Shown here one piece after another: positions 33 through 11,156 of a DNA stretch of 11,898 nucleotides. The notes under the pieces are model-generated. The model did not search any database and was not told the origin of the DNA. It saw only the letters and a program-made list of their open reading frames with translations. The position numbers and the translations under genes are program-made. Numbering within the stretch: position 1 is the stretch's first letter; each line of letters begins with the position of its first letter. Origin of the DNA: an uncultured Selenomonas sp. (GTDB taxonomy: Bacteria; Bacillota; Negativicutes; Selenomonadales; Selenomonadaceae); NCBI GenBank assembly GCA_945494195.1, contig CALYVJ010000028.1:1-11898 (forward strand), read 5' to 3'.

Positions 33-1139
33 TTGAAAACAGTAATGGGGATTATCAATCTTCAGGAAGATAATAGCTTGATTCGCGACCTGACGGTGCG
101 CCGTGCCGTAGAGTCAATACCATTTGCCGGACGGTACCGGTTGATCGACTTTACCTTATCCAGCATGGTGAATTCCGGCATCTCAAATGTCGGGGTCATG
201 CTGCCGGATAAACCGCGTTCGGTACTAGATCATCTGCGTTCGGGTAAAGATTGGGATTTGGCTCGCCACCATGATGGTTTGTTTTATCTTCCGGCATCGC
301 AGCAGGAAGATGTGAACCGTAAGGGTGATTTGAAGAATTTCTATCACAATCTGGATTTCTTCGAGCACAGTTCCCAGCGCTATGTCCTGCTGACCAGCGG
401 TAGTTTTGTCTACAATGTGGATTTCAGCCAGCTGTTGCGTTTCCACCAGAACACCAATGCCGATATCACTATGGTATATAATACGGCCAGTGAAGAAGCT
501 CATGGCAAGAATGTGGTCATTGAGACAGCTGAGAACGGCCTGGTTACGGATATTGCCGAGAAACCGGCTGTTTATGATGGAACACAGGTATCGACGAATG
601 TCTATCTCATGGAGAAGCGCATCTTTGTAGAAATGATTCGCTATACCTATGAACATGGTGGACAGGATTTCCTGATGGATGGTATCATCCGCCGGGCTGC
701 TGAGTATAACATCTATGGCTATGAACATGATGGTTACGTGGCCCATGTGGATTCTACGGCGGCATACTATAAAGCCAATATGGATATCCTGCAGCCAGAG
801 GTATGGGAGGAGCTCTTTATGGGGCAGCATCCCGTTTATACGAAGGTAAAGGATGAAGTGCCGGTCCAGTATAAGGAAACCGCCGATGTCAAGAATTCAC
901 TGATTGCCAATGGCTGCATTGTCCGCGGGGAAGTGGAGAACAGTATCCTGTTCCGCGGTGTCAAAGTGGCTGAGGGAGTCAAAATCAAAAATTCCATTAT
1001 CATGCAGAAATGCGACATTCAAGAAGGTTCTCTAATTGAAAATGTCATCTGTGATAAAAATGTCATCATCACGGAGGAGAAGTGGCTCAAGGGAGCTGCT
1101 AACTACCCGCTGATTGTTACAAAAAATGTCGTAATTTGA
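33..1139 (+). CDS. glgD: Glucose-1-phosphate adenylyltransferase-like subunit GlgD
   Basis: This is the GlgD paralogue of ADP-glucose pyrophosphorylase. In Firmicutes it partners the catalytic GlgC to make ADP-glucose for glycogen synthesis in the cytoplasm. The 368 residues match the family length. The N-terminal nucleotidyltransferase fold is recognisable from PFAGRYRLIDFTLSSMVNSG (about residues 30-49) and from the EKP motif around Lys177. The glycine/arginine-rich GGGxGxRLxPLT loop of catalytic GlgC is absent and replaced by INLQEDNSLIRDL, which is typical of GlgD as a regulatory or low-activity subunit. Residues ~285-350 have the hexapeptide pattern of a left-handed beta-helix (for example CIVRGEVENSILFRGVKV), the usual oligomerisation/allosteric domain. 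The start is TTG with a good RBS; the next codons give MKTVMGI. The gene is first in the visible operon, and glgC is expected just upstream. The subunit role is known from the family; partnership with GlgC here is inferred. Confidence 0.93.
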   Translation: MKTVMGIINLQEDNSLIRDLTVRRAVESIPFAGRYRLIDFTLSSMVNSGISNVGVMLPDKPRSVLDHLRSGKDWDLARHHDGLFYLPASQQEDVNRKGDLKNFYHNLDFFEHSSQRYVLLTSGSFVYNVDFSQLLRFHQNTNADITMVYNTASEEAHGKNVVIETAENGLVTDIAEKPAVYDGTQVSTNVYLMEKRIFVEMIRYTYEHGGQDFLMDGIIRRAAEYNIYGYEHDGYVAHVDSTAAYYKANMDILQPEVWEELFMGQHPVYTKVKDEVPVQYKETADVKNSLIANGCIVRGEVENSILFRGVKVAEGVKIKNSIIMQKCDIQEGSLIENVICDKNVIITEEKWLKGAANYPLIVTKNVVI

Positions 1140-1149
1140 TAGGCAAAGT

Positions 1150-1207
1150 CAGCCGTTGTAACGAGGTACCATTGCTTATAACGGGCAGTGGGCTCGGACA
1201 ACGGCTG
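1150..1207 (+). promoter_or_regulatory. Long imperfect hairpin in the glgD-glgP gap
   Basis: A 10-bp perfect outer stem, CAGCCGTTGT (1150-1159) with ACAACGGCTG (1198-1207), encloses a 4-bp stem (CGAG 1162-1165 with CTCG 1193-1196). That encloses a 7-bp stem with one G-U pair (CCATTGC 1169-1175 with GCAGTGG 1185-1191) and a 9-nt loop. Small internal loops separate the three helices. No run of U follows directly, so it does not look like a standard terminator. It could be an mRNA stabiliser, a processing site or a translation regulator ahead of glgP. The structure was worked out by eye from base complementarity. Confidence 0.7.
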
Positions 1208-1250
1208 TTCTTATTGTAAAAAACTTAAGGTATTTGTGGCTCAAGGCCAA

Positions 1251-1257
1251 AGGGGAG
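1251..1257 (+). promoter_or_regulatory. Ribosome binding site that fixes the glgP start
   Basis: AGGGGAG sits 8 nt before a TTG at 1266-1268. The reading frame is open further upstream to a GTG at 1188, but that GTG lies inside the intercistronic hairpin, has no Shine-Dalgarno, and would add 26 residues (GSDNGCSYCKK...) unlike any phosphorylase N-terminus. The TTG at 1266 is therefore preferred. Confidence 0.8.
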
Positions 1258-1265
1258 TGTTTTAT

Positions 1266-3743
1266 TTGGCAAGAGAAAAGAAAGAAAAAAAACAGAAGGG
1301 ATCAAAGAGCAAGGAGTTTGAAAAGCTTAAAGAGGGTCTTAAAGTTCGTTTTGTGAATACCGCTCATATCATGTGGGGGCGTGCCCTCAATGAACTGACG
1401 GAAAATGAAATTTATCAGACTGTGGCAGCAACAGCCAAACAGTATATTTCCGATAACTGGATCAAGACAAATCGCACCTATGAAGAGCGCGAGGAAAAGC
1501 AGGTTTATTATTTCTCCATTGAATTTTTGATGGGGCGTCTGTTGAAATCAAATCTGATTAATCTCGGTATTGAAGAAGCAGTTCGGGAGGTTTTGGAAGG
1601 ATTTGACCTAAACTTATCCGAAGTCTTCGAGGAAGAGCCGGATGCCGGTCTCGGCAATGGCGGCTTGGGACGCCTGGCTGCCTGCTTCATCGACTCGATG
1701 GCAGCTCACCGACTGCCAGGACATGGCTGCAGCATCCGCTATCAGTATGGGTTGTTTGAACAGAAAATCATCAATGGCAACCAGATTGAGATTCCGGATA
1801 ACTGGCTGAAAAATGGGTTTGCCTGGGAGTATCGCAAACCAGATAAGGCTGTTGATGTAAAATTTGGCGGCAATGCCTACATGAAGGAAATGCCGGACGG
1901 CAGCCTCAAACTAGTTCATGAGCATGCGCGGACGGTAATGGCAGTTCCGTATGATGTGCCAATTGTAGGCTATCACAACAATACGGTCAATACGCTGCGC
2001 CTTTGGAATGCAGAAGTCAATCGCGATTTTTCGGATTATGGCATGCTGACCCAGGAACAGATGCGGCAAAAAAATGAATATCGCCTGTTCGTGGAAAGCA
2101 TTACGCGTTATCTGTATCCGGATGATAGTACCTATGAAGGCCGTCGCATGCGCTTGATACAGGAGTACTTTATGACTTCGGCTGGCGTACAGAGCATCGT
2201 CCGCCACTTTAAGAAGACGGGCATGAATCTGCATGATTTTGCCCAGAAGATTGCTATCCATATCAACGATACGCATCCGGCTGTGGCAGTGGCAGAACTT
2301 ATGCGCATCCTGGTGGATGAAGAGGGCTTTGAGTGGAATGAGGCTTGGGCAATCACGAAGAACACCATTGCCTATACCAATCATACGATTATGCCGGAGG
2401 CCTTGGAGACGTGGCCTGTAGATATGTTCCGGGAACTTTTGCCACGCATTTATATGATTATTGATGAAATAAACCGCCGTCATCTTTTGGAAGTACGGGC
2501 CCGTTACCCGCGTAACGAAGGCAAGGTCCATGCCCTTTCCATTATCCAGGATGGATTGGTCCATATGGCCAGACTTTCCATTGTAGGCGGTCATAGTGTC
2601 AATGGCGTTGCCAAAATCCATTCGGATATTTTGAAGGATACGACATTGCGGGATTTCTATGAGTACAATCCGAAGATGTTCAACAATAAGACGAACGGCA
2701 TCACCCATCGCCGGTGGCTCATGGGGGCTAATCCAGAGCTGGCGGATCTCATCGATGCGACTATCGGCAGCCGCCGCTGGCATCGTCATCCGGAACAGCT
2801 GGATTTGCTCAATGATTATGTGGAAGACAAACCTTTTCTGGCGGAACTTGGCAAGATCAAACACCTCCGCAAAGAGGCTTTGGCAAAATACATCAAAGAG
2901 CACAATGGCATTGAGGTCAACCCGGATTCCATTTTCGATATCCAGGTTAAACGCATCCATTCCTATAAGCGCCAGCTTATGAATATCATGCACATCATGT
3001 ATCAGTATCACAAGCTCAAGACGGATAAGAGCTTTGATATGCTGCCGACTACGTATATTTTTGGCGGTAAGGCAGCACCAGGATACTATATCGCTAAAGA
3101 GACGATTCGCCTGATCCTGGCTGTGGCAGATAAGGTCAACAACGATAAGTCCATCAAGGGGAAAATCAAGATTGTCTTTATTGAAAACTTTGGCGTATCG
3201 ATTGGTGAGATCGTCTATCCGGCCGCTGATGTCAGCGAGCAGATTTCCACTGCTTCGAAGGAAGCTTCGGGGACTGGCAATATGAAATTCATGATGAATG
3301 GTGCTATTACCCTGGGAACCCTTGACGGGGCAAATGTCGAAATCCGTGAGGCAGTAGGCGGCGATGAGCACTGTGTAATTTTTGGCCTGCGGGCGGAAGA
3401 GGTATTGAACTATTACGCAACGGGAACTTATTCTGCTTGGGATGAGTACAATACCAATGAAAATGTCCGTATCGTTGTGAACCAGCTGACGGATGGGACT
3501 TATGGTGATTTCCGTTCGCTTTATGAATATCTCGTCCATGCAAACGATGAGTTCTTTATCATGAAGGACTTCAATGCCTATGCTGCGGCTCATGTGGAAA
3601 TCATGAAGCGGTATCAGGATCGTTTCCATTGGCTTAAATCATCGGCTATGAATATTGCCAATTCCGGATGCTTCTCGTCTGACCGGACTATCGACGAGTA
3701 TGCAAATCAAATCTGGCAGGTAAAACCTGTCATGATTCCATAA
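1266..3743 (+). CDS. glgP: Glycogen/starch/alpha-glucan phosphorylase (GT35)
   Basis: GlgP removes glucose from non-reducing alpha-1,4 ends of glycogen as glucose-1-phosphate, using pyridoxal phosphate, in the cytoplasm. From the TTG start the protein is 825 residues, the normal family length. Visible family signatures are LGNGGLGRLAACF (from residue 129), HINDTHPAVAVAELMR (from 332), the phosphate-site block QVKRIHSYKRQ with Lys562/Arg563, and the PLP motif EASGTGNMKFMMNGA, in which Lys674 is the expected Schiff-base lysine. The QVKRIH block usually continues EYKRQ; here the Glu is Ser. All core motifs are intact, so it should be active. The first ~25 residues form a strongly basic, low-complexity extension (MAREKKEKKQKGSKSKEFEK). 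It lies between glgD and glgB, separated from both by structured gaps, so breakdown is encoded within the biosynthetic operon. Confidence 0.96.
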   Translation: MAREKKEKKQKGSKSKEFEKLKEGLKVRFVNTAHIMWGRALNELTENEIYQTVAATAKQYISDNWIKTNRTYEEREEKQVYYFSIEFLMGRLLKSNLINLGIEEAVREVLEGFDLNLSEVFEEEPDAGLGNGGLGRLAACFIDSMAAHRLPGHGCSIRYQYGLFEQKIINGNQIEIPDNWLKNGFAWEYRKPDKAVDVKFGGNAYMKEMPDGSLKLVHEHARTVMAVPYDVPIVGYHNNTVNTLRLWNAEVNRDFSDYGMLTQEQMRQKNEYRLFVESITRYLYPDDSTYEGRRMRLIQEYFMTSAGVQSIVRHFKKTGMNLHDFAQKIAIHINDTHPAVAVAELMRILVDEEGFEWNEAWAITKNTIAYTNHTIMPEALETWPVDMFRELLPRIYMIIDEINRRHLLEVRARYPRNEGKVHALSIIQDGLVHMARLSIVGGHSVNGVAKIHSDILKDTTLRDFYEYNPKMFNNKTNGITHRRWLMGANPELADLIDATIGSRRWHRHPEQLDLLNDYVEDKPFLAELGKIKHLRKEALAKYIKEHNGIEVNPDSIFDIQVKRIHSYKRQLMNIMHIMYQYHKLKTDKSFDMLPTTYIFGGKAAPGYYIAKETIRLILAVADKVNNDKSIKGKIKIVFIENFGVSIGEIVYPAADVSEQISTASKEASGTGNMKFMMNGAITLGTLDGANVEIREAVGGDEHCVIFGLRAEEVLNYYATGTYSAWDEYNTNENVRIVVNQLTDGTYGDFRSLYEYLVHANDEFFIMKDFNAYAAAHVEIMKRYQDRFHWLKSSAMNIANSGCFSSDRTIDEYANQIWQVKPVMIP

Positions 3744-3752
3744 GGAGCTGGA

Positions 3753-3794
3753 TTATTGATGGCAGGCGAGTGGGATTCGCCTGCCTATCAATGG
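3753..3794 (+). promoter_or_regulatory. Hairpin in the glgP-glgB gap
   Basis: A 9-bp perfect stem (GGCAGGCGA 3761-3769 with TCGCCTGCC 3777-3785) closes a 7-nt loop. After a single-nt bulge (3786) the helix continues with TTGAT 3756-3760 pairing with ATCAA 3787-3791, an A-T pair (3755/3792) and two G-U pairs. It begins about 10 nt after the glgP stop and ends about 8 nt before the glgB ribosome binding site. No U-run follows, so it is not a standard terminator. mRNA protection of the upstream message or translational control of glgB are plausible roles. Confidence 0.75.
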
Positions 3795-3800
3795 ATATAA
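3759..3800 (+). CDS. Possible 13-codon leader-type ORF before glgB
   Basis: An ATG at 3759 (with an in-frame TTG just before it) opens a 13-residue frame, MAGEWDSPAYQWI, ending in TAA at 3798-3800. A strong Shine-Dalgarno, TAAGGAG, overlaps the glgP stop codon and lies 11 nt upstream, at the long end of useful spacing. The stop falls one base before the glgB ribosome binding site, and almost the whole ORF lies inside the hairpin at 3753-3794. A ribosome reading it would melt the hairpin and finish beside the glgB start region, so translational coupling is possible. No homology is recognised and the frame could be chance. Confidence 0.3.
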   Translation: MAGEWDSPAYQWI

Positions 3801-3801
3801 C

Positions 3802-3812
3802 AGGGGGGGGGA
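3802..3812 (+). promoter_or_regulatory. Ribosome binding site of glgB made of a 9-G tract
   Basis: A run of nine G (3803-3811) flanked by A on each side is the only Shine-Dalgarno-like sequence before the glgB TTG at 3818, with about 6 nt from the end of the run to the start. Its homopolymeric nature is unusual, because such runs are prone to replication slippage, which would change SD-start spacing. An in-frame ATG at 3791 would put the G-run inside the coding region (MDITGGGINLKTSD), but that ATG has no ribosome binding site. Confidence 0.65.
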
Positions 3813-3817
3813 TTAAT

Positions 3818-6178
3818 TTGAAAACATCAGATCTTAGTGAATTTGACCGATATTTATTCCATCAGGGAACAAACTATCATGCCTATGAGATGCTTGGAGC
3901 TCATTTCGTGGAGGAAAATGGCAAAAAGGGCGTACGGTTTGCGGTTTGGGCACCCCATGCCAAATCCATCACGGTGGTTGGTGATTTCAACAACTGGGAT
4001 GACCGGGTAAATCCGATGACCCGTTTGGATGATGGGGAGATTTGGTCGGTATTTTTGGAAAACATTCCTGAAGGGGCACTTTACAAATATGCGATCGAAC
4101 CCCAGTGGGGGGGACCTCGCATCTTGAAGGCTGACCCCTATGGATTCTACGCGGAAAAGAAACCGAATACGGCTTCTCGGGTCTATGATATGAGTCGCTA
4201 TGAATGGAAGGATAATGCCTGGGCGGAGCAGAAACGCCGGGAATCCTCCTATGAGCGGCCGATGCTTACCTATGAGGTTCATGCTGGTTCTTGGCGGCGC
4301 AATGCCGATGGGGAGTATCTGTCGTATCGCGAGCTGGCCGACCAGCTCGTTGACTACGTTCGGGACATGAACTATACTCATATTGAGTTTATGCCGCTTT
4401 GCGAACATCCTTTTGATGGTTCTTGGGGCTATCAGGCAACGGGGTATTATGCGGTGACCAGTCGCTATGGCACGCCGGATGATTTCCGTTATCTGGTTGA
4501 CCGGGCGCATGCGAATGGCATCGGCGTTATCATGGATTGGGTACCGGGACATTTCTGCAAGGATGAACAGGGACTCCGCCATTTTGATGGTCAGACTCTC
4601 TATGAATCGGATAATGAGACTCGTGCCGAGAACTGGGAGTGGGGAACCACGAACTTCGATTACGGCCGTACGGAGGTTCAGAGTTTCTTGATTTCCAATG
4701 CCATGTTCTGGTTCGAGGAATTCCATATTGATGGGTTGCGCATTGATGCGGTAGCGAATATGCTCTACCTTAATTATGGACGCAAAGACGGTGAGTGGCA
4801 GCCCAACAAGTATGGGGATACAGGTAATCTGGAGGCTATGGATTTTTTGAAGAAGCTCAATGAGGCTATCTTCCAGTACCATCCACAGGCGTTGATGATT
4901 GCTGAGGAGTCAACGGCCTGGCCGTTGATTTCCAAGCCAGTCTATATGGGTGGTATGGGCTTTAATTACAAGTGGAATATGGGCTGGATGAATGATATGC
5001 TCAAATATATGAGCTTGGATCCAATCTATCGTAAGTGGAATCACGATAAGGTTACGTTCTCGTTCATGTATGCCTTTTCGGAAAACTTTGTACTGCCATT
5101 GTCCCATGATGAGGTCGTTCATGGCAAGTGCTCGCTTATCAGCAAGATGCCTGGCGATTATTGGCAAAAGTTTGCTGGCTTGCGTTCCTTCTTTGGCTAT
5201 TGGATGGCTCATCCTGGTAAGAAGTTGCTGTTCATGGGAGGCGAGTTCGGTCAGTTCATCGAGTGGAATTACGATGATAGTCTGGATTGGCATCTGGTGG
5301 AACAGTATGAGATGCATACAAAGATGAAGGAATATTCCAAGGCGCTCAATAAATTCTATTGTGACCATAAGGCTTTTTGGCAGGTGGATTTCGATTGGAA
5401 TGGTTTCCAATGGATTGACTGCAACGATAATGAGAATAGCATTGTATCCTTTATCCGCAAGGCAGACGACAGCAACGACTTCATCATTGCCATCTGCAAC
5501 TTCACGCCAGAGGTTCGCCATAATTACCGGATTGGTGTTCCTTCCAAGGGAAATTATGTGGAGGTATTCAATTCGGATGATGAGGCCTTTGGCGGCAGCG
5601 GTGTCAAGAATGCCAATGAAATTGCTTCGGTGGATATTCCCTGGCATAACCGGGAACAGTCCATTACGCTTACTATCCCGCCGTTGGCAACTATCTATCT
5701 GCGTTTAAACGGTCAGACTGGTGCAGGAACGTCTTTTTCTGAAGCTTCGGCGGAAGTAGACGCCAGAGGCCATGAGGAAAAAGAATCTGCCGATAAGGCA
5801 GAAGCCGCTGAAGTAAAGGCCACGGCTAAGCGCCGTGGCCGTCCGAAAAAGACAGAGGCAGAAAAGAAGGAACCAGCCAAGAAAACAGTGGCGAAGAAAA
5901 CGACCCGTAAGACCACTGCCCAAGTGACGGCGGCGAAAGTGGAACAGTCTAAGGAAGAAACGAAGAAAGAAGAAAAGCCCAAGAAAGCTGCGGCTAAGAA
6001 AGCTTCTACTGCCAAAACGGCCACGAAAAAAACGACAGCAGCTAAAAAAGATTCTGGATCTGCTGCCGCTAAGAAAGCAACTACCCCTAAGAAGGCAACA
6101 AAAAAATCTGCTGCTGTTACGACGGCAGCCCGTAAGAAAACGGTGAAGAAAAAAGCTGTTGCCGTCGGCGATGAATAA
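3818..6178 (+). CDS. glgB: 1,4-alpha-glucan branching enzyme GlgB with Lys/Ala-rich tail
   Basis: GlgB cuts an alpha-1,4 chain and re-attaches it through an alpha-1,6 bond, creating glycogen branches. From the TTG at 3818 it has 786 residues: a CBM48-type beta-sandwich (about 30-110, with WAPHAKSITVVGDFNNW), a GH13 barrel, and a C-terminal beta domain ending near PPLATIYLRL (residue ~630). The catalytic residues are present: Asp310 in GLRIDAVANM, Glu363 in IAEEST, Asp431 in LSHDEVVHGK. This core is the compact branching-enzyme length without an extra N1 domain. Unlike ordinary GlgB it continues for ~155 residues: an acidic linker, then a Lys/Ala/Thr-rich tail with an AT-hook-like motif. The start is chosen from the G-rich ribosome binding site; the upstream GTG at 3770 and ATG at 3791 lack one. 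The stop is 13 nt before glgA and is followed at once by the glgA Shine-Dalgarno, so the two are probably coupled. Confidence 0.95.
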   Translation: MKTSDLSEFDRYLFHQGTNYHAYEMLGAHFVEENGKKGVRFAVWAPHAKSITVVGDFNNWDDRVNPMTRLDDGEIWSVFLENIPEGALYKYAIEPQWGGPRILKADPYGFYAEKKPNTASRVYDMSRYEWKDNAWAEQKRRESSYERPMLTYEVHAGSWRRNADGEYLSYRELADQLVDYVRDMNYTHIEFMPLCEHPFDGSWGYQATGYYAVTSRYGTPDDFRYLVDRAHANGIGVIMDWVPGHFCKDEQGLRHFDGQTLYESDNETRAENWEWGTTNFDYGRTEVQSFLISNAMFWFEEFHIDGLRIDAVANMLYLNYGRKDGEWQPNKYGDTGNLEAMDFLKKLNEAIFQYHPQALMIAEESTAWPLISKPVYMGGMGFNYKWNMGWMNDMLKYMSLDPIYRKWNHDKVTFSFMYAFSENFVLPLSHDEVVHGKCSLISKMPGDYWQKFAGLRSFFGYWMAHPGKKLLFMGGEFGQFIEWNYDDSLDWHLVEQYEMHTKMKEYSKALNKFYCDHKAFWQVDFDWNGFQWIDCNDNENSIVSFIRKADDSNDFIIAICNFTPEVRHNYRIGVPSKGNYVEVFNSDDEAFGGSGVKNANEIASVDIPWHNREQSITLTIPPLATIYLRLNGQTGAGTSFSEASAEVDARGHEEKESADKAEAAEVKATAKRRGRPKKTEAEKKEPAKKTVAKKTTRKTTAQVTAAKVEQSKEETKKEEKPKKAAAKKASTAKTATKKTTAAKKDSGSAAAKKATTPKKATKKSAAVTTAARKKTVKKKAVAVGDE
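5711..6175 (+). other. Histone H1/AlgP-like basic tail of GlgB with AT-hook-like motif
   Basis: This segment encodes residues ~632-786 of GlgB. Residues 642-667 form a mostly acidic linker rich in Glu, Asp and Ala. They are followed by KRRGRPKK (residues 671-678, bases 5828-5851), which matches the GRP core with basic flanks of an AT-hook. The rest is low complexity and built from Lys pairs spaced by Ala/Thr/Pro (AKK, TKK, PKK repeated). By hand count, about 38 of 155 residues are Lys and 6 are Arg, with one aromatic residue. Both AAA and AAG, and varied Ala and Thr codons, are used, so it is not a simple DNA repeat expansion. Such sequence is expected to be disordered and polyanion-binding; its role on a branching enzyme is unknown to me. 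Confidence 0.9.
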
Positions 6179-6183
6179 GGAGG
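6177..6183 (+). promoter_or_regulatory. Ribosome binding site that fixes the glgA start
   Basis: AAGGAGG overlaps the glgB stop codon. It is 8 nt before the ATG at 6192 and only 2 nt before the in-frame ATG at 6186, so 6192 is favoured. That choice gives the standard GlgA N-terminus MKVLYVASEVVPFAKTGGL. Overlap with the glgB stop implies translational coupling. Confidence 0.85.
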
Positions 6184-6191
6184 ATATGGGT

Positions 6192-7628
6192 ATGAAAGTT
6201 CTTTATGTAGCATCGGAAGTAGTGCCTTTTGCCAAAACGGGAGGATTGGCTGATGTAGCAGGTTCTCTTCCTCAGGCATTGAAAGAGGAGAATGTAGATA
6301 TCCGTGTCATCATGCCGAAATTTGGCAAGATTGACCCGAAATATACCAACGCTATGGAGCACGTTTATGACGGGGAATTGGATGTAGCTTGGCGCAAAAA
6401 GTATGTGGGGTTGGATAAATACGAAAAGGACGGGATTACTTATTATTTCGTCGATAACCAGGAATATTTCGGTCGTGAGGGCTTCTATGGTTATGACGAT
6501 GATGCAGAGCGTTTTTCTTTCTTCTGCCGTGCAGTCTTGAATTTACTGCCGGTTATGGATTTCTGGCCGGAGGTCATCCATACCAACGATTGGCATGCGG
6601 GGCTGGTAAATGTCCTGTTGAAACTTGAGCACATGGATGATGAGCGTTATCGCGACATCCGTACACTCTATACGATTCATAATCTCAAATATCAGGGGGT
6701 GTTCCCGAAAGAGGTTATGAGCGATGTCTTGGGGATTGACTGGAAGTATTTCAATAATGGAGATTTGGAATTTTATGATGCCGTTAACTTCATGAAGGGT
6801 GGTATCATTTATGCCGATTATATCTCCACCGTCAGTAAGACGTATGCCCAGGAGATTCAGTACGGATACTTTGGTGAGCACTTAGATGGCCTGCTCCGCA
6901 GCCGCCAGGATACCCTGTTCGGCATTGTGAACGGCTTGGATTATAATGTTTACAATCCGGCTACAGATACGAATTTGTTTGAGACTTATGACATCGACAG
7001 TCGTGACCGCAAGGCCGACAATAAGACGGAATTGCAGAACCTTCTGGGATTGCCGAACAACCGCCGGACACCGATGGTGGCACTGGTTTCGCGTCTCGTT
7101 GCGGCTAAGGGGCTTGACCTCATCGTCCGCATGATGGATGAAATCCTGCAGCATGAGGATATTCAGTTCGTTATGCTTGGAACTGGCGATAGAGAATATG
7201 AAGAGTGGTTCAAAGGGCTGGAGTGGCGTTTCCCCAACAAGGTTTCGGCCAATATTAAGTTCTCTAATGAATTAGCGCAGCGCATGTATGCGGCAGCGGA
7301 TATTTTCCTGATGCCGTCGGATTACGAGCCCTGTGGTATTGGCCAGTTGATTGCCTTGCGTTATGGTGCTGTTCCTGTCGTCCGCGAGATTGGCGGACTT
7401 AAGGATACGGTCCAGCAGTATGATAAGTATACGAATGAGGGCAATGGCTTTGTCTTTGGAGATTACAATGCCCATGAAATGATGTATGCGTTAAAGCGTG
7501 CGCTTAGTGCCTACGAGAATTTCGAAGAGTGGCAGCATATTGTGGCAAATGCGATGAATACAGATTACAGTTGGAAAAATTCTGCTAGGGAATACAAGGA
7601 ACTGTATCAGAAACTGTTAGAGGAATAA
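6192..7628 (+). CDS. glgA: Glycogen synthase, ADP-glucose type (GT5)
   Basis: GlgA transfers glucose from ADP-glucose to non-reducing ends of alpha-1,4-glucan in the cytoplasm. The 478 residues match the bacterial GT5 family. The N-terminal Rossmann domain begins with the hallmark KTGGLADVAGSLPQAL (Lys15 of KTGGL contacts ADP-glucose in the family) and includes HTNDWHAGL and TIHNLKYQGVFP. The C-terminal half has VSRLVAAKGLDLI, VMLGTGDREYE, and the conserved active-site block YEPCGIGQLIALRYGAVPVVRE with Glu379, followed by GGLKDTV. Nothing is missing or truncated. The gene follows glgB by 13 nt, so it should be made in proportion to GlgB, which suits joint elongation and branching. A terminator-like hairpin follows, which may reduce transcription of the next gene. 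Confidence 0.97.
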   Translation: MKVLYVASEVVPFAKTGGLADVAGSLPQALKEENVDIRVIMPKFGKIDPKYTNAMEHVYDGELDVAWRKKYVGLDKYEKDGITYYFVDNQEYFGREGFYGYDDDAERFSFFCRAVLNLLPVMDFWPEVIHTNDWHAGLVNVLLKLEHMDDERYRDIRTLYTIHNLKYQGVFPKEVMSDVLGIDWKYFNNGDLEFYDAVNFMKGGIIYADYISTVSKTYAQEIQYGYFGEHLDGLLRSRQDTLFGIVNGLDYNVYNPATDTNLFETYDIDSRDRKADNKTELQNLLGLPNNRRTPMVALVSRLVAAKGLDLIVRMMDEILQHEDIQFVMLGTGDREYEEWFKGLEWRFPNKVSANIKFSNELAQRMYAAADIFLMPSDYEPCGIGQLIALRYGAVPVVREIGGLKDTVQQYDKYTNEGNGFVFGDYNAHEMMYALKRALSAYENFEEWQHIVANAMNTDYSWKNSAREYKELYQKLLEE

Positions 7629-7697: not shown

Positions 7698-10600
7698 ATG
7701 CTGGAAAGAAATGAGGTTGAGCATAATTCTCGAAATGTCTATTTTCGTTCCCAGGTTGGAGCAGCAGAGGCTGGTTCTAAAATAAAACTCGGTATTCGTT
7801 TGCGAACTTGCCAGTCCATCCAGAGTGTTCTTATGCGGGGATGGCATGACCGGTTCGGGGAAAAACTCTTTACGCTTACCACTAAGAATGAATGGTCCAG
7901 TGAGGAAAAGTTCTATTCCATCACATTGGATTTGCCGGAAAAAGGCTGCCTGCTTTGGTATTATTTCATCATCACAACCGCGGAAGGCACTTGTTACTAC
8001 GGAAATAATCCGGAACAGCTTGGTGGTTTAGGGGAAGTATATGACCATGTTCCGCCTTCGTTCCAGATTACGGTATATAATAAGGGCGCCAAAACACCGG
8101 ACTGGTTCAAACACAGCGTGATGTATCAAATTTTCCCCGACCGGTTCAATCGGCAGGGAGAACGGATTATTCCTAAAAAGGGCGCCGTATATCATGCGGA
8201 TTGGTCAGATGATCCCTGTTATTATAAAGATCCTGATACGAAAGAGATTGTAGCGTATGATTTTTTTGGCGGCAATCTGCAGGGAATCCGGGAGAAACTC
8301 AGCTATTTGAAAAAACTGGGGATTTCGGTTATCTATCTCAATCCGGTCTTTGAGTCTGAAAGCAATCATCATTATGATACTGGTGACTATCATAAAATCG
8401 ATCCGATTCTCGGGACGAGAGAGGATTTTCGTGAATTGGTCCAGGCAGCGAAGGAGCAGGGGATACGGATAATCCTCGACGGTGTCTTCAGTCATACGGG
8501 TAGCAACAGCCGCTATTTCAATCGGGCGGGGGACTATGATACTGTGGGTGCATTCCAGTCCAAGGAATCTCCCTACTACGAATGGTATAGCTTCCGCAAT
8601 TTTCCCTATGAATACGATAGCTGGTGGAATTTCAACACCCTGCCGAATGTCAATGAGACGACCCCTTCCTACATGGATTTCATCATTTACGATGAGGACA
8701 GTGTGCTTCACCATTGGATGAAGGAGGGAATCGCCGGCTGGCGTCTCGATGTCATTGATGAACTGCCGGAGCCCTTTTCCCAGGCTTTTTATGCGGAACT
8801 GAAAAAGACGAATCCTGAGGCCGTCATGATTGGTGAGGTCTGGGAGGATGCCTCGCATAAGATTGCTTATGGAACGCCGCGGGAGTATCTTTGCGGTCAG
8901 GAAATGGATTCGGCGATGAACTATCCATTCCGGGATATCCTGTTTGATTTCTTGCTGTATCGAAATGATGGGCGGCAGGCAATGCGGCGGTTTGAGAGCT
9001 TGCGGGAGAATTATCCCAAGGAAAATTTCTATTCCATGATGAACCTTATCGGCAGCCATGATGTTCAGCGGGCCATAACGATCCTGGGGGAGGCAGCTTA
9101 TTACGATGGTATGCCGGCCGCAGAGCAGTCGCGGTCAAGGCTGGACAAGGATCAGTATAATCTTGGGGTAGAACGGCTGATGATGGCTTCACTTTGGCAG
9201 ATGACTTATCCAGGGGTTCCCTGTGTCTACTATGGTGATGAAATCGGCATGCAGGGATTTAAAGATCCATATAATCGCCGGCCGTATCCTTGGGGGAAGG
9301 GAGATCCTTATCTGAACCATTGGTATGAGAAAATCATTGCCCTGCGCAATGAACATCCGGCGCTGCAGACTGGTGCGCTGCTGCCACTCCTGGCAGAAGG
9401 GGATTGTATCGCCTATGCCCGGGTCATCCGCGGCGGCAAGGATGTGTTCGGACAAGAAGAAAAAGATGAAGCCTTCCTGGCTGCCTTTAACCGAAGCCGG
9501 ACGGAAACCCATACCCTGGAAATGGATGTCAGCGATTTCGCAGAGGGGTATTTTGTCGATGCGCTGGGGAGTGATGATGTGTATGAGGTCACCCGCGGCA
9601 AAGTGGAGTTAAGGCTTGAGCCGCTGACCGGGGTCCTGCTCCAGCATAAGCGGGCTCCCCGAGCCTATAAGCGTCAGGCAGGCATATTGCTTCATCCCAC
9701 TTCACTGCCGTCTAAATATGGAATCGGGGATCTGGGTAAAGAAGCGTACAAATTCGTTGATTTTCTCAAGGACGCTGGGCAAAAGGTCTGGCAAATTCTC
9801 CCCTTGGGGCCTGTGGATAACGTGGGATATTCCCCTTACCAGTCGAGCTCGGCTTTCGCCGGGAATCCCTTGCTGATTGATTTGAACGAATTGATTGAGA
9901 AGAAGTGGTTAACGGCAGCTGAGGCCAGGGTGCCTAATGTGAGCAATTCCCCTTTTATCGATTTTGAATGGGTCCAGCATTTCAAGCAGAAATGTTTCAA
10001 AAAGGCTTGGACGAAATTCCAGCATACGATGGATAAAAATGAAGAGTATCAGGAATTTTGCCGGAAAGAAGCGGATTGGCTGGAGGATTTTTCGTTATTC
10101 CAGGCAGCTAAGCGGGAATACAAGGGGAAGGAGTGGAGCAAGTGGCCGGAACCCATCCGGGGGCGTGATCCCAAGGCGTTGGCCGAACTTAGAAAACGTT
10201 TGGCCGATTCTGTGGGGATGGTGAAGTTTGAGCAATATCTATTTGCCCAACAGTGGCAACGGCTTCATGATTATGCGAAATCCCAGGGAATCCAGATCAT
10301 GGGGGACATGCCGATATTCTTGGCGGGGGACAGTGCAGATGTCTGGGCGAACCAGAAACTTTTTGATCTTCGGGAAGATGGCACGGCCAATACAGTGGCC
10401 GGAGTCCCGCCGGATTACTTTAGTGCAACGGGACAGCTTTGGGGCAATCCCCAGTACGATTGGCAGGCGATGAAGGCGGATAATTACAGTTGGTGGAAAA
10501 AACGCTTTCATAAGCTGTTCGAGATGGTGGATATCGTCCGCATCGATCATTTCCGTGGATTTGAGTCCTTTTGGGAAGTGGATGGAAAGGCGTCAACTGC

Positions 10601-11156
10601 CATCAATGGCCGCTGGGTCAAGGGGCCAGGGAAGCCATTTTTTGATGAGATTCGCCGGGAATTTGGTGACAAGTTCCGTATTGTAGCCGAGGATTTGGGA
10701 ATCATCACTAATGAGGTGGAACAGCTTCGCGATGTCTGCGGGTTCCCTGGAATGAAAGTACTGCATTTCTGCTTGCATTTCAATGAGCAGGGGCGGCTTG
10801 GCTGTGTGGTCCCCGAGAACAGCGTGGTATACACGGGAACGCATGATAACAATACGACGGTTGGCTGGTACAATCAAGATATTGATGAATCCGTGCGGGC
10901 CGCAGTGGCAGGCTTGCTGCATGCCAAGGCTGACCGGCCGCAGGATGTGGCTGCCGGGCTTATCGCTTTTGCGTATGCGTCAAATGCCCGCTTGGCAATT
11001 GTTCCGATGCAGGATATCCTGCATCTGGATGAGCGCAGCCGGATGAATACACCGGGAACGGTGGGGTTGAATTGGAAATGGCGGCTGAAAGCGGATTACA
11101 TGTTGCTGATTGAGCCAGAAGAATTAAAACGCCTTGGCGAAAAATACGAGCGTTAA
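7698..11156 (+). CDS. Fused GH13 amylase/neopullulanase and GH77 4-alpha-glucanotransferase
   Basis: One 1152-residue cytoplasmic protein (no signal peptide) joins two complete enzymes. Residues 1-~135 form a beta-sandwich-like N-domain of neopullulanase type. Residues ~139-560 are a GH13 barrel starting HSVMYQIFPDRF, with His266 in DGVFSHTG, Asp351 in GWRLDVIDE (nucleophile), Glu380 in IGEVWED (acid/base) and Asp455 in IGSHDVQR; a beta domain follows to ~655. Residues ~659-1150 are a full-length amylomaltase (MalQ) starting RQAGILLHPTSLPS, with Asp950 in RIDHFRGF, Glu998 in AEDLG and Asp1050 in GTHDNNTT. Both active sites look intact. The GH13 part should cut alpha-1,4 and perhaps alpha-1,6 bonds in maltodextrins or limit dextrins, while the GH77 part disproportionates short chains for reuse by GlgP. 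Substrate choice is inferred. No separate glgX is present here, so this protein may supply debranching. Confidence 0.93.
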   Translation: MLERNEVEHNSRNVYFRSQVGAAEAGSKIKLGIRLRTCQSIQSVLMRGWHDRFGEKLFTLTTKNEWSSEEKFYSITLDLPEKGCLLWYYFIITTAEGTCYYGNNPEQLGGLGEVYDHVPPSFQITVYNKGAKTPDWFKHSVMYQIFPDRFNRQGERIIPKKGAVYHADWSDDPCYYKDPDTKEIVAYDFFGGNLQGIREKLSYLKKLGISVIYLNPVFESESNHHYDTGDYHKIDPILGTREDFRELVQAAKEQGIRIILDGVFSHTGSNSRYFNRAGDYDTVGAFQSKESPYYEWYSFRNFPYEYDSWWNFNTLPNVNETTPSYMDFIIYDEDSVLHHWMKEGIAGWRLDVIDELPEPFSQAFYAELKKTNPEAVMIGEVWEDASHKIAYGTPREYLCGQEMDSAMNYPFRDILFDFLLYRNDGRQAMRRFESLRENYPKENFYSMMNLIGSHDVQRAITILGEAAYYDGMPAAEQSRSRLDKDQYNLGVERLMMASLWQMTYPGVPCVYYGDEIGMQGFKDPYNRRPYPWGKGDPYLNHWYEKIIALRNEHPALQTGALLPLLAEGDCIAYARVIRGGKDVFGQEEKDEAFLAAFNRSRTETHTLEMDVSDFAEGYFVDALGSDDVYEVTRGKVELRLEPLTGVLLQHKRAPRAYKRQAGILLHPTSLPSKYGIGDLGKEAYKFVDFLKDAGQKVWQILPLGPVDNVGYSPYQSSSAFAGNPLLIDLNELIEKKWLTAAEARVPNVSNSPFIDFEWVQHFKQKCFKKAWTKFQHTMDKNEEYQEFCRKEADWLEDFSLFQAAKREYKGKEWSKWPEPIRGRDPKALAELRKRLADSVGMVKFEQYLFAQQWQRLHDYAKSQGIQIMGDMPIFLAGDSADVWANQKLFDLREDGTANTVAGVPPDYFSATGQLWGNPQYDWQAMKADNYSWWKKRFHKLFEMVDIVRIDHFRGFESFWEVDGKASTAINGRWVKGPGKPFFDEIRREFGDKFRIVAEDLGIITNEVEQLRDVCGFPGMKVLHFCLHFNEQGRLGCVVPENSVVYTGTHDNNTTVGWYNQDIDESVRAAVAGLLHAKADRPQDVAAGLIAFAYASNARLAIVPMQDILHLDERSRMNTPGTVGLNWKWRLKADYMLLIEPEELKRLGEKYER

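Follow-up and report, generated by a model that had tools for sequence, protein, structure and literature searches.

The window analysed here comprises 11,898 bases and makes up the whole of one contig (G000:C28) in the draft genome of an uncultured Selenomonas sp. of the family Selenomonadaceae (f1). It is occupied by a glycogen operon with the gene order glgD, glgP, glgB, glgA and GH13-GH77 fusion, followed at the end by an HD-domain gene on the opposite strand (Table 1). The element under study is the C-terminus of the branching enzyme GlgB, where the core is continued in the same frame by a lysine-rich tail of 157 amino acids (residues 646-802, positions 5705-6175).

As judged by its domains, conserved catalytic residues and operon context, the window protein is a GH13 branching enzyme. 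The families PF02922, PF00128 and PF02806 score above their Pfam cut-offs, the match to NF003811 reaches 949 bits (cut-off 741), and D326, E379 and D447, which we take to be the GH13 catalytic triad, are unchanged across 21 aligned sequences. In the AlphaFold2 model (predicted template-modelling score 0.75) the predicted local distance difference test score (pLDDT) of the core is mostly above 80, with lower values in some loops and in residues 1-14. A preliminary description of this DNA had reported a complete GlgB with three catalytic residues and a long in-frame tail, which is borne out by the invariant triad and the 157 extra residues; the core end, placed there near residue 630, is shifted to residues 645-647 by the branching-enzyme models NF003811, NF008967 and TIGR01515.

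The tail contains 38 lysines (24%, encoded by 19 AAA and 19 AAG codons), 6 arginines and 20 aspartates or glutamates, with a net charge of +24 and just three residues from the set FWYCHIML. The acidic linker, the KRRGRPKK motif and the spaced lysine pairs described earlier are all read in the translation, and the pLDDT is below 50 at every position of residues 652-802. The make-up likened to histone H1 is likewise found, the tail being lysine-rich, positively charged and predicted to be disordered, with HC2 and H1 family scores below their cut-offs. Among the 53 tailed GlgBs of Selenomonadaceae described below, the most acidic part of the tail is its second tenth (0.21 acidic, 0.18 basic).

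A separate gene or stop-codon readthrough was rejected as the source of the tail, since core and tail are encoded by a single open frame, both in the window and in those relatives that were read, and since the glgA Shine-Dalgarno sequence lies at the glgB stop. An origin of the tail in a free-standing H1-like protein encoded elsewhere in the genome was considered as well: a tail search (E up to 10) of the draft own genome matched the tail itself alone, and in ten relatives it matched the GlgB tails of G019, G020, G010 and G031 together with two weak other places. Little can be concluded from so insensitive a search, which missed the existing GlgB tails of G011, G018, G016, G005 and G029. Within the lysine codons of the tail, stretches of six or seven consecutive A (6026-6032, 6044-6049, 6100-6106 and 6149-6154) are possible polymerase slippage sites, which could yield heterogeneous tail ends. 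Opposite the tail an antisense frame of 188 codons is present (5713-6279, minus strand); it mirrors the lysine and alanine codons and is not necessarily a gene.

Table 1. Features of the glycogen operon in the window
Feature	Position	Strand	Basis and remarks
glgD-type ADP-glucose pyrophosphorylase subunit	33-1139	+	NCBIfam match; without tail in aligned relatives
glgP, glycogen phosphorylase	1188-3743	+	NCBIfam match; without lysine-rich C-terminal tail
glgB, whole gene	3770-6178	+	802 amino acids, GTG start
glgB core (CBM48, GH13 barrel, C-terminal beta domain), residues 1-645	3770-5704	+	Pfam/NCBIfam
Acidic/mixed linker, residues 646-686	5705-5827	+	Translation
AT-hook-like KRRGRPKK, residues 687-694	5828-5851	+	Translation; RGRP core present
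H1-like lysine-rich part, predicted disordered, lysine pairs spaced by Ala/Thr/Pro, residues 695-802	5852-6175	+	Composition, repeats, pLDDT about 30
glgA Shine-Dalgarno sequence AAGGAGG	6177-6183	+	Sequence; overlaps the glgB stop codon (6176-6178)
glgA, glycogen synthase	6192-7628	+	ATG at 6192; tailless here, counterpart in family f15 tailed
GH13 amylase-GH77 4-alpha-glucanotransferase fusion	7698-11156	+	Pfam/NCBIfam; tailless

For comparison with other genomes, a tail was defined as at least 60 amino acids with at least 15% lysine plus arginine beyond the core end, net charge not entering the rule. GlgB was found in 154 of the 250 genomes of the class that were searched, and all 61 of these belonging to Selenomonadaceae were read. 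The GlgB set of the family comprises 69 sequences, or 68 with a complete end after exclusion of G025, which runs into a contig end with 49 amino acids visible; G007 and G023 (no strong match) and G017 (split gene) were left unassessed. A tail rich in lysine and arginine is observed on 53 of the 68 GlgBs, in 12 of 22 genera, and its presence is all-or-none within each genus having more than one assessed genome. The window's genus (22 genomes, G007 and G017 lacking a usable GlgB) has it on 20/20 assessable GlgBs with lengths of 71-206 amino acids, those of the sister genomes G019, G020 and G010 being 161-190 amino acids long. Named isolates, Mitsuokella sp. oral taxon 131 (L001) and Selenomonas artemidis DSM 19719 (L003), are tailed too, as are two metagenome-assembled genomes (MAGs) of Anaerovibrio (L006, L007). 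An assembly error or single-strain feature is thus ruled out by the sister genomes, the genus and the isolates. The net charge is +4 to +39 in the family and +10 to +39 in the genus. Of the conservation across Negativicutes GlgBs considered in the preliminary description, the basic make-up stands in these 53 tails, but length varies within the genus and the GRP motif is confined to a minority. GlgA of the same family carries no tail in any of 63 complete sequences (67 in the set, 4 running off the fetched stretch).

A scan of the flanks of GlgB loci revealed the same kind of tail on the glycogen synthase GlgA in two Succiniclasticum MAGs (L014, L066) and a Selenomonadales MAG (L016); the synthase domains of the tailed L014 protein were confirmed. 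The family of Succiniclasticum and its kin (f15) was then represented by 59 genomes with 23 GlgA matches, of which 22 were assessed (fragment G239 dropped). Nineteen of these are tailed, with 65-219 amino acids (18 of the 21 whose end is complete, G226 at a contig end giving a minimum), and in the genus g70 the tail typically begins with an acidic half, after which come repeats of lysine pairs. GlgB of this family is tailed in only one of 21 cases (G194, over the threshold on both enzymes), the others ending short and often basic. Because the tail can sit on either of two enzymes whose shared property is the glycogen particle, it would more probably place or hold that particle than tune one reaction. 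Sensing of a polyanion in order to change branching, as suggested at the outset, fits badly, since this neighbouring family has the tail on the synthase.

The remaining enzymes of the operon, GlgD, GlgP and the GH13-GH77 fusion, are without such a tail in the window and in 40 loci, wherever complete copies are present; among them the longest C-terminal ends belong to GlgP (27 amino acids in G045 and 35 in G054). In the window the GlgP frame starts with GTG and a lysine-rich stretch (1188-1350, REKKEKKQKGSKSKEF) before the phosphorylase domain, its true start being unsure. The top NCBIfam equivalog of the fusion (7698-11156) scores 1248.5 bits, below the cut-off of 1322.

Outside these two families the distribution is patchier. 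No tailed GlgB is found among 16 GlgBs read from 14 other families, the remaining family genomes being judged by match end and open-frame length only. In f4, three of five GlgBs read are tailed; these five represent a group of at least 12 genomes and were picked partly for long matches, hence the sample is biased. Families f15 and f4 group together on the GlgB tree with 100 support in the Shimodaira-Hasegawa-like approximate likelihood-ratio test, and the tail state changes eight times within Negativicutes, gain and loss not being separated; the trees were built by quick methods with long-branch warnings. Among outside rows, mostly Clostridia, a GlgB tail rich in lysine and arginine occurs in 14 of 64 tree rows, a biased frequency: out of 550 confirmed candidates the outside loci are the 80 best, and the six patterns used for the search include one, KEETKKEE, that falls within the tail. 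Sixty-four of the 80 (L015, L017, L018 and L019-L080 without L066) were placed on the tree.

Three Clostridia genomes with a lysine-tailed GlgB (G262, G263 and G264, the genomes of L055, L031 and L052) contain a second, more distant homologue (42-43% identity), the match to which stops close to the end of the core; that of G264 has internal stops. In two proteobacterial MAGs, a small DUF2934 protein ending in a lysine-rich tail is encoded some 0.5 kb upstream of the glgB match (L061:2221-2502, minus strand; L063:2154-2471, plus strand); such proteins may be a further lysine-rich partner of glycogen enzymes.

The tails are under purifying selection. By a simple pairwise count, in which several pairs share a sequence, the ratio of nonsynonymous (dN) to synonymous (dS) substitution rates is 0.10-0.48 in the tail and 0.00-0.07 in the core for 12 GlgB pairs, a 13th pair with tails of three residues not being counted, and 0.23-0.49 and 0.05-0.17, respectively, for 5 GlgA pairs. 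This range implies that the exact sequence drifts while the make-up is retained. The tail could be imagined as an entropic or solubility bristle without specific partner on a crowded glycogen surface, or as near-neutral growth of a low-complexity repeat. Length within one genus and sequence do drift fast, with a tail dN about 3.5 to 20 times that of the core, and a 58-nucleotide repeat pair is present. Yet the ratios stay low in 12/12 GlgB and 5/5 GlgA pairs, presence is all-or-none within genera, the tail recurs on GlgA with patterned lysine pairs, and a neutral bristle would not need the net charge seen in the window's genus, which makes this explanation quite unlikely.

The patterning of the lysines goes beyond composition. 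The pattern KK[ASTP]2-4[KR]2 occurs 87 times in the 53 tails of Selenomonadaceae as compared with 10.4 in residue shuffles, none of 500 shuffles being as high, and GRP/GRKP occurs 12 times as compared with 0.3; both are far over shuffles in the GlgA tails as well. As the tail sequences are related and the counts not independent, this comparison is not a probability. The strict AT-hook core [KR]GRP is found in 8 of the 53 tails, from three genera, and the looser GRP/GRKP in 10 of 53 GlgB tails and 10 of 19 GlgA tails of f15, recurring in f1, f4 and f15. Of the AT-hook proposed earlier the GRP motif is thus present in the window tail, but Pfam AT_hook reaches 12.6 bits there, under the cut-off of 17.4, and an essential role is ruled out by the frequency of the strict core; the motif is a recurrent accessory and not the core of the tail. 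A genome-wide DNA pattern for KK(A/S/T/P)2KK was dropped and is unused as evidence, because among the matches listed its counts are of similar magnitude to those of a reversed-pattern control in most of 38 genomes and because it misses most such tails.

Lysine-rich segments elsewhere in the genomes were located by a scan of 400 kb each of G011 and G029 (800 kb), whose positive control flags both GlgB tails and 50 of the 53 tails of the family. Besides these it marks three places: topoisomerase I at its end, an NYN-domain protein in an inner linker, and one protein with no family assigned. A looser scan yields nine and seven places in G011 and G029, some in short frames that are not necessarily genes; recognisable ones are the end of a DEAD-box helicase, the N-terminal part of initiation factor IF-2, ParB and an FtsA-like protein. 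Judged from sequence, comparable segments sit mostly on nucleic-acid binders, of both DNA and RNA, and among the annotated places no other metabolic enzyme carries one. The linker of the NYN-domain protein (L164:17217-18029, minus strand, G011) is rich in lysine and alanine, and the FtsA/PilM-like protein of G029 (L186:1982-4552, minus strand) starts with two KRGRPKK-type motifs in tandem (RGRPKK), a motif as in the window tail.

These data bear on the idea that the tail is a generic polyanion anchor, binding mainly RNA (above all) or ribosomes, or anionic membrane lipid, instead of DNA. Its composition would suit any polyanion, the strict AT-hook core is missing in 45 of 53 tails, and the similar segments of DEAD-box helicase and IF-2 in the sampled relatives point the same way. 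GRP/GRKP is, however, a DNA minor-groove motif and recurs in the tails of three families, comparable segments are also present on topoisomerase I and ParB, and the closest described precedents bind DNA (PMC9239181, PMC13052382); on balance an anchor of this kind is unlikely.

Polyphosphate, named in the preliminary description as another ligand, would either attract GlgB to polyphosphate granules or be sensed by the tail. AlgP of Pseudomonas does associate with such granules (PMC9239181), and 11 of the 15 other genomes of the family that were searched (G022-G036), both tailed and untailed, encode polyphosphate kinase PPK1. In the window's genus, by contrast, PPK1 is found in 1/22 and PPK2 in 0/22 genomes, the own one included and several incomplete (own 82%), though all assessable GlgBs are tailed; polyphosphate is therefore disfavoured there, and its binding as the role of the tail is highly improbable. 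The sole PPK1 species of the genus, G008 (L101), has an atypical tail, the shortest of all there (71 amino acids, with 10 arginines and 9 lysines), which likewise speaks against polyphosphate.

The polycationic tail might instead cluster enzymes. By attaching to acidic surfaces on GlgA and GlgB, or else to the acidic linkers of other tails, it would gather the two enzymes on the growing particle, and the nucleoid would play no part. In 50 tailed genomes of Selenomonadaceae the mean core net charge is -28.9 for GlgB and -16.1 for GlgA, and in 19 tailed genomes of f15 it is -16.9 for GlgA, while GlgA of 15 tailless genomes from other families has just -6.7; moreover, the tail switches between two enzymes that must cooperate. 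On the other hand, acidity is usual among bacterial proteins, GlgA is acidic (-10.3) also in 14 genomes of Selenomonadaceae without a long tail, phylogeny not being controlled for, and the GRP/GRKP motifs are left unexplained. A tracking of partner-enzyme charge by the tail was rejected, as differences are small under the same lack of phylogenetic control, and clustering is considered fairly unlikely.

Closer parallels are provided by proteins that hold other storage granules. In Pseudomonas putida and Cupriavidus necator, PhaF and PhaM attach to granules by their N-terminal part and bind DNA nonspecifically by a histone-like C-terminal domain, and granules of polyhydroxyalkanoate (PHA) and polyhydroxybutyrate (PHB) are spread along the nucleoid (excerpts of PMC13052382). 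Tailed GlgB has a similar, H1-like C-terminus, and its core is predicted to bind the storage polymer. PhaF is a phasin and not a polymer-building enzyme. It differs also in its polymer, PHA, and in a tail homologous to the KPAA repeats of AlgP (PMC9239181). AlgP of Pseudomonas aeruginosa has a predicted disordered C-terminal domain of 195 amino acids, rich in lysine, proline and alanine and likened to histone H1, with a 154-residue KPAA region required for even spacing of polyphosphate granules (excerpts of PMC9239181). In place of an enzyme it has a helical N-terminal domain. Both PhaF and AlgP are proposed to link their granules to the nucleoid (PMC9239181, PMC13052382). Length, composition and C-terminal placement of the GlgB tail are similar: the disordered, lysine- and alanine-rich C-terminal domain of about 150 residues typical of such tethers corresponds to 157 residues with 24% lysine and pLDDT of about 30. 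Such tethers sit on a binder of the storage polymer; the carrier here is GlgB or GlgA by sequence, for which glycogen binding would follow from the protein family. The tail, on this comparison, would resemble PhaF and AlgP in its way of working and is not a member of their sequence family.

With ordinary GlgB the window protein shares the whole core, the catalytic residues and the operon context, the difference being the extra cationic tail; to our knowledge, GlgB of Escherichia coli is without one. A survey of 9,006 bacterial branching enzymes sorts them into classes by N-terminal domains, and the words 'disordered' and 'lysine' are absent from its main text (PMC6339891). Neither these topics nor the nucleoid surface in the first 300,000 of 445,374 characters of a review of prokaryotic alpha-glucan enzymes, as judged by 'disordered', 'lysine-rich' and 'nucleoid' (PMC11046441), and the word glycogen is absent from the main text of a 2025 review of organelle positioning (PMC13052382). 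Among the titles and abstract starts listed from the open-licence literature of PubMed Central, none describes such a tail on GlgB or GlgA. Excerpts of two further sources report that glycogen of E. coli lies at the old pole and displaces the nucleoid, both being mutually exclusive (PMC12706056), and list Selenomonas ruminantium as glycogen-storing (PMC10395257).

A nucleoid tether is favoured because the particle is shared by both tail-bearing enzymes, because PhaF and AlgP are the nearest systems and because E. coli glycogen displaces the nucleoid; it was also the first function suggested in the preliminary description. The tail could thus be a built-in, nonspecific nucleoid tether for glycogen, similar to PhaF and AlgP but fused to the polymer-making enzyme, an interpretation to which we assign a little less than an even chance. 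The folded core would bind the glycogen particle and build it up, as is established for branching enzymes, while the disordered, first acidic and then polycationic tail would reach out and grip the chromosome by H1-like electrostatic contacts, assisted in some lineages by the GRP/GRKP motif. Nascent glycogen would stay on or among the nucleoid, spread through the cell and be shared at division, and its fusion into one polar mass would be hindered. Directly supported are the presence of the tail, its conservation and constraint, its predicted disorder, its restriction to one glycogen-building enzyme of the operon and its placement on GlgA in f15.

Several points weigh against a tether. DNA binding, nucleoid location and an effect on particle distribution are steps we infer from these observations and from the precedents. 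DNA is not singled out as the ligand, since comparable segments are present on the RNA-binding DEAD-box helicase and IF-2. Lysine- and alanine-rich make-up is shared with HC2 and with the H1-like proteins of Burkholderia, bacterial H1-like proteins being free small proteins, but both family matches lie below cut-off (Pfam HC2, weak, E 0.02, 15.5 of 40 bits; NCBIfam hist_H1_lk_Burk, E 8e-4, 19.8 of 80 bits). AlgP carries KPAA repeats, whereas no KPAA repeat is present in the window tail, whose repeats are of the type KK(A/T)n or, more generally, KK[ASTP]2-4[KR]2. Fifteen of the 68 GlgBs of Selenomonadaceae are below the tail threshold (3-52 amino acids); a short tail of 51 amino acids is seen in the relative Pectinatus haikarae. 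The GlgA tails of g70 are near neutral overall (-6 to +20 in 12 complete ones) owing to their long acidic half, which makes their binding strength less clear, and some lysine- and arginine-rich tails of Clostridia are even net acidic (L049 -6, L075 -14).

Nucleoid tethers have so far been described for granules of PHA/PHB and polyphosphate. It is possible, though we hold it with somewhat more reserve than an even chance would warrant, that glycogen as the third major bacterial storage polymer has a nucleoid-tethering system of its own, in the form of an H1-like tail on GlgB in Selenomonadaceae or on GlgA in the Succiniclasticum family, lysine-rich GlgB tails being present in distant Clostridia too. 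If so, glycogen would be kept on the chromosome in these bacteria, in contrast to E. coli, where polar glycogen excludes the nucleoid. Should the tail work in this way, bacteria would also set the position of glycogen, by means of a tether within the synthesising enzyme, and the tail would offer a portable module with which to ask why the position of glycogen matters, the swap between GlgB and GlgA being a natural experiment.

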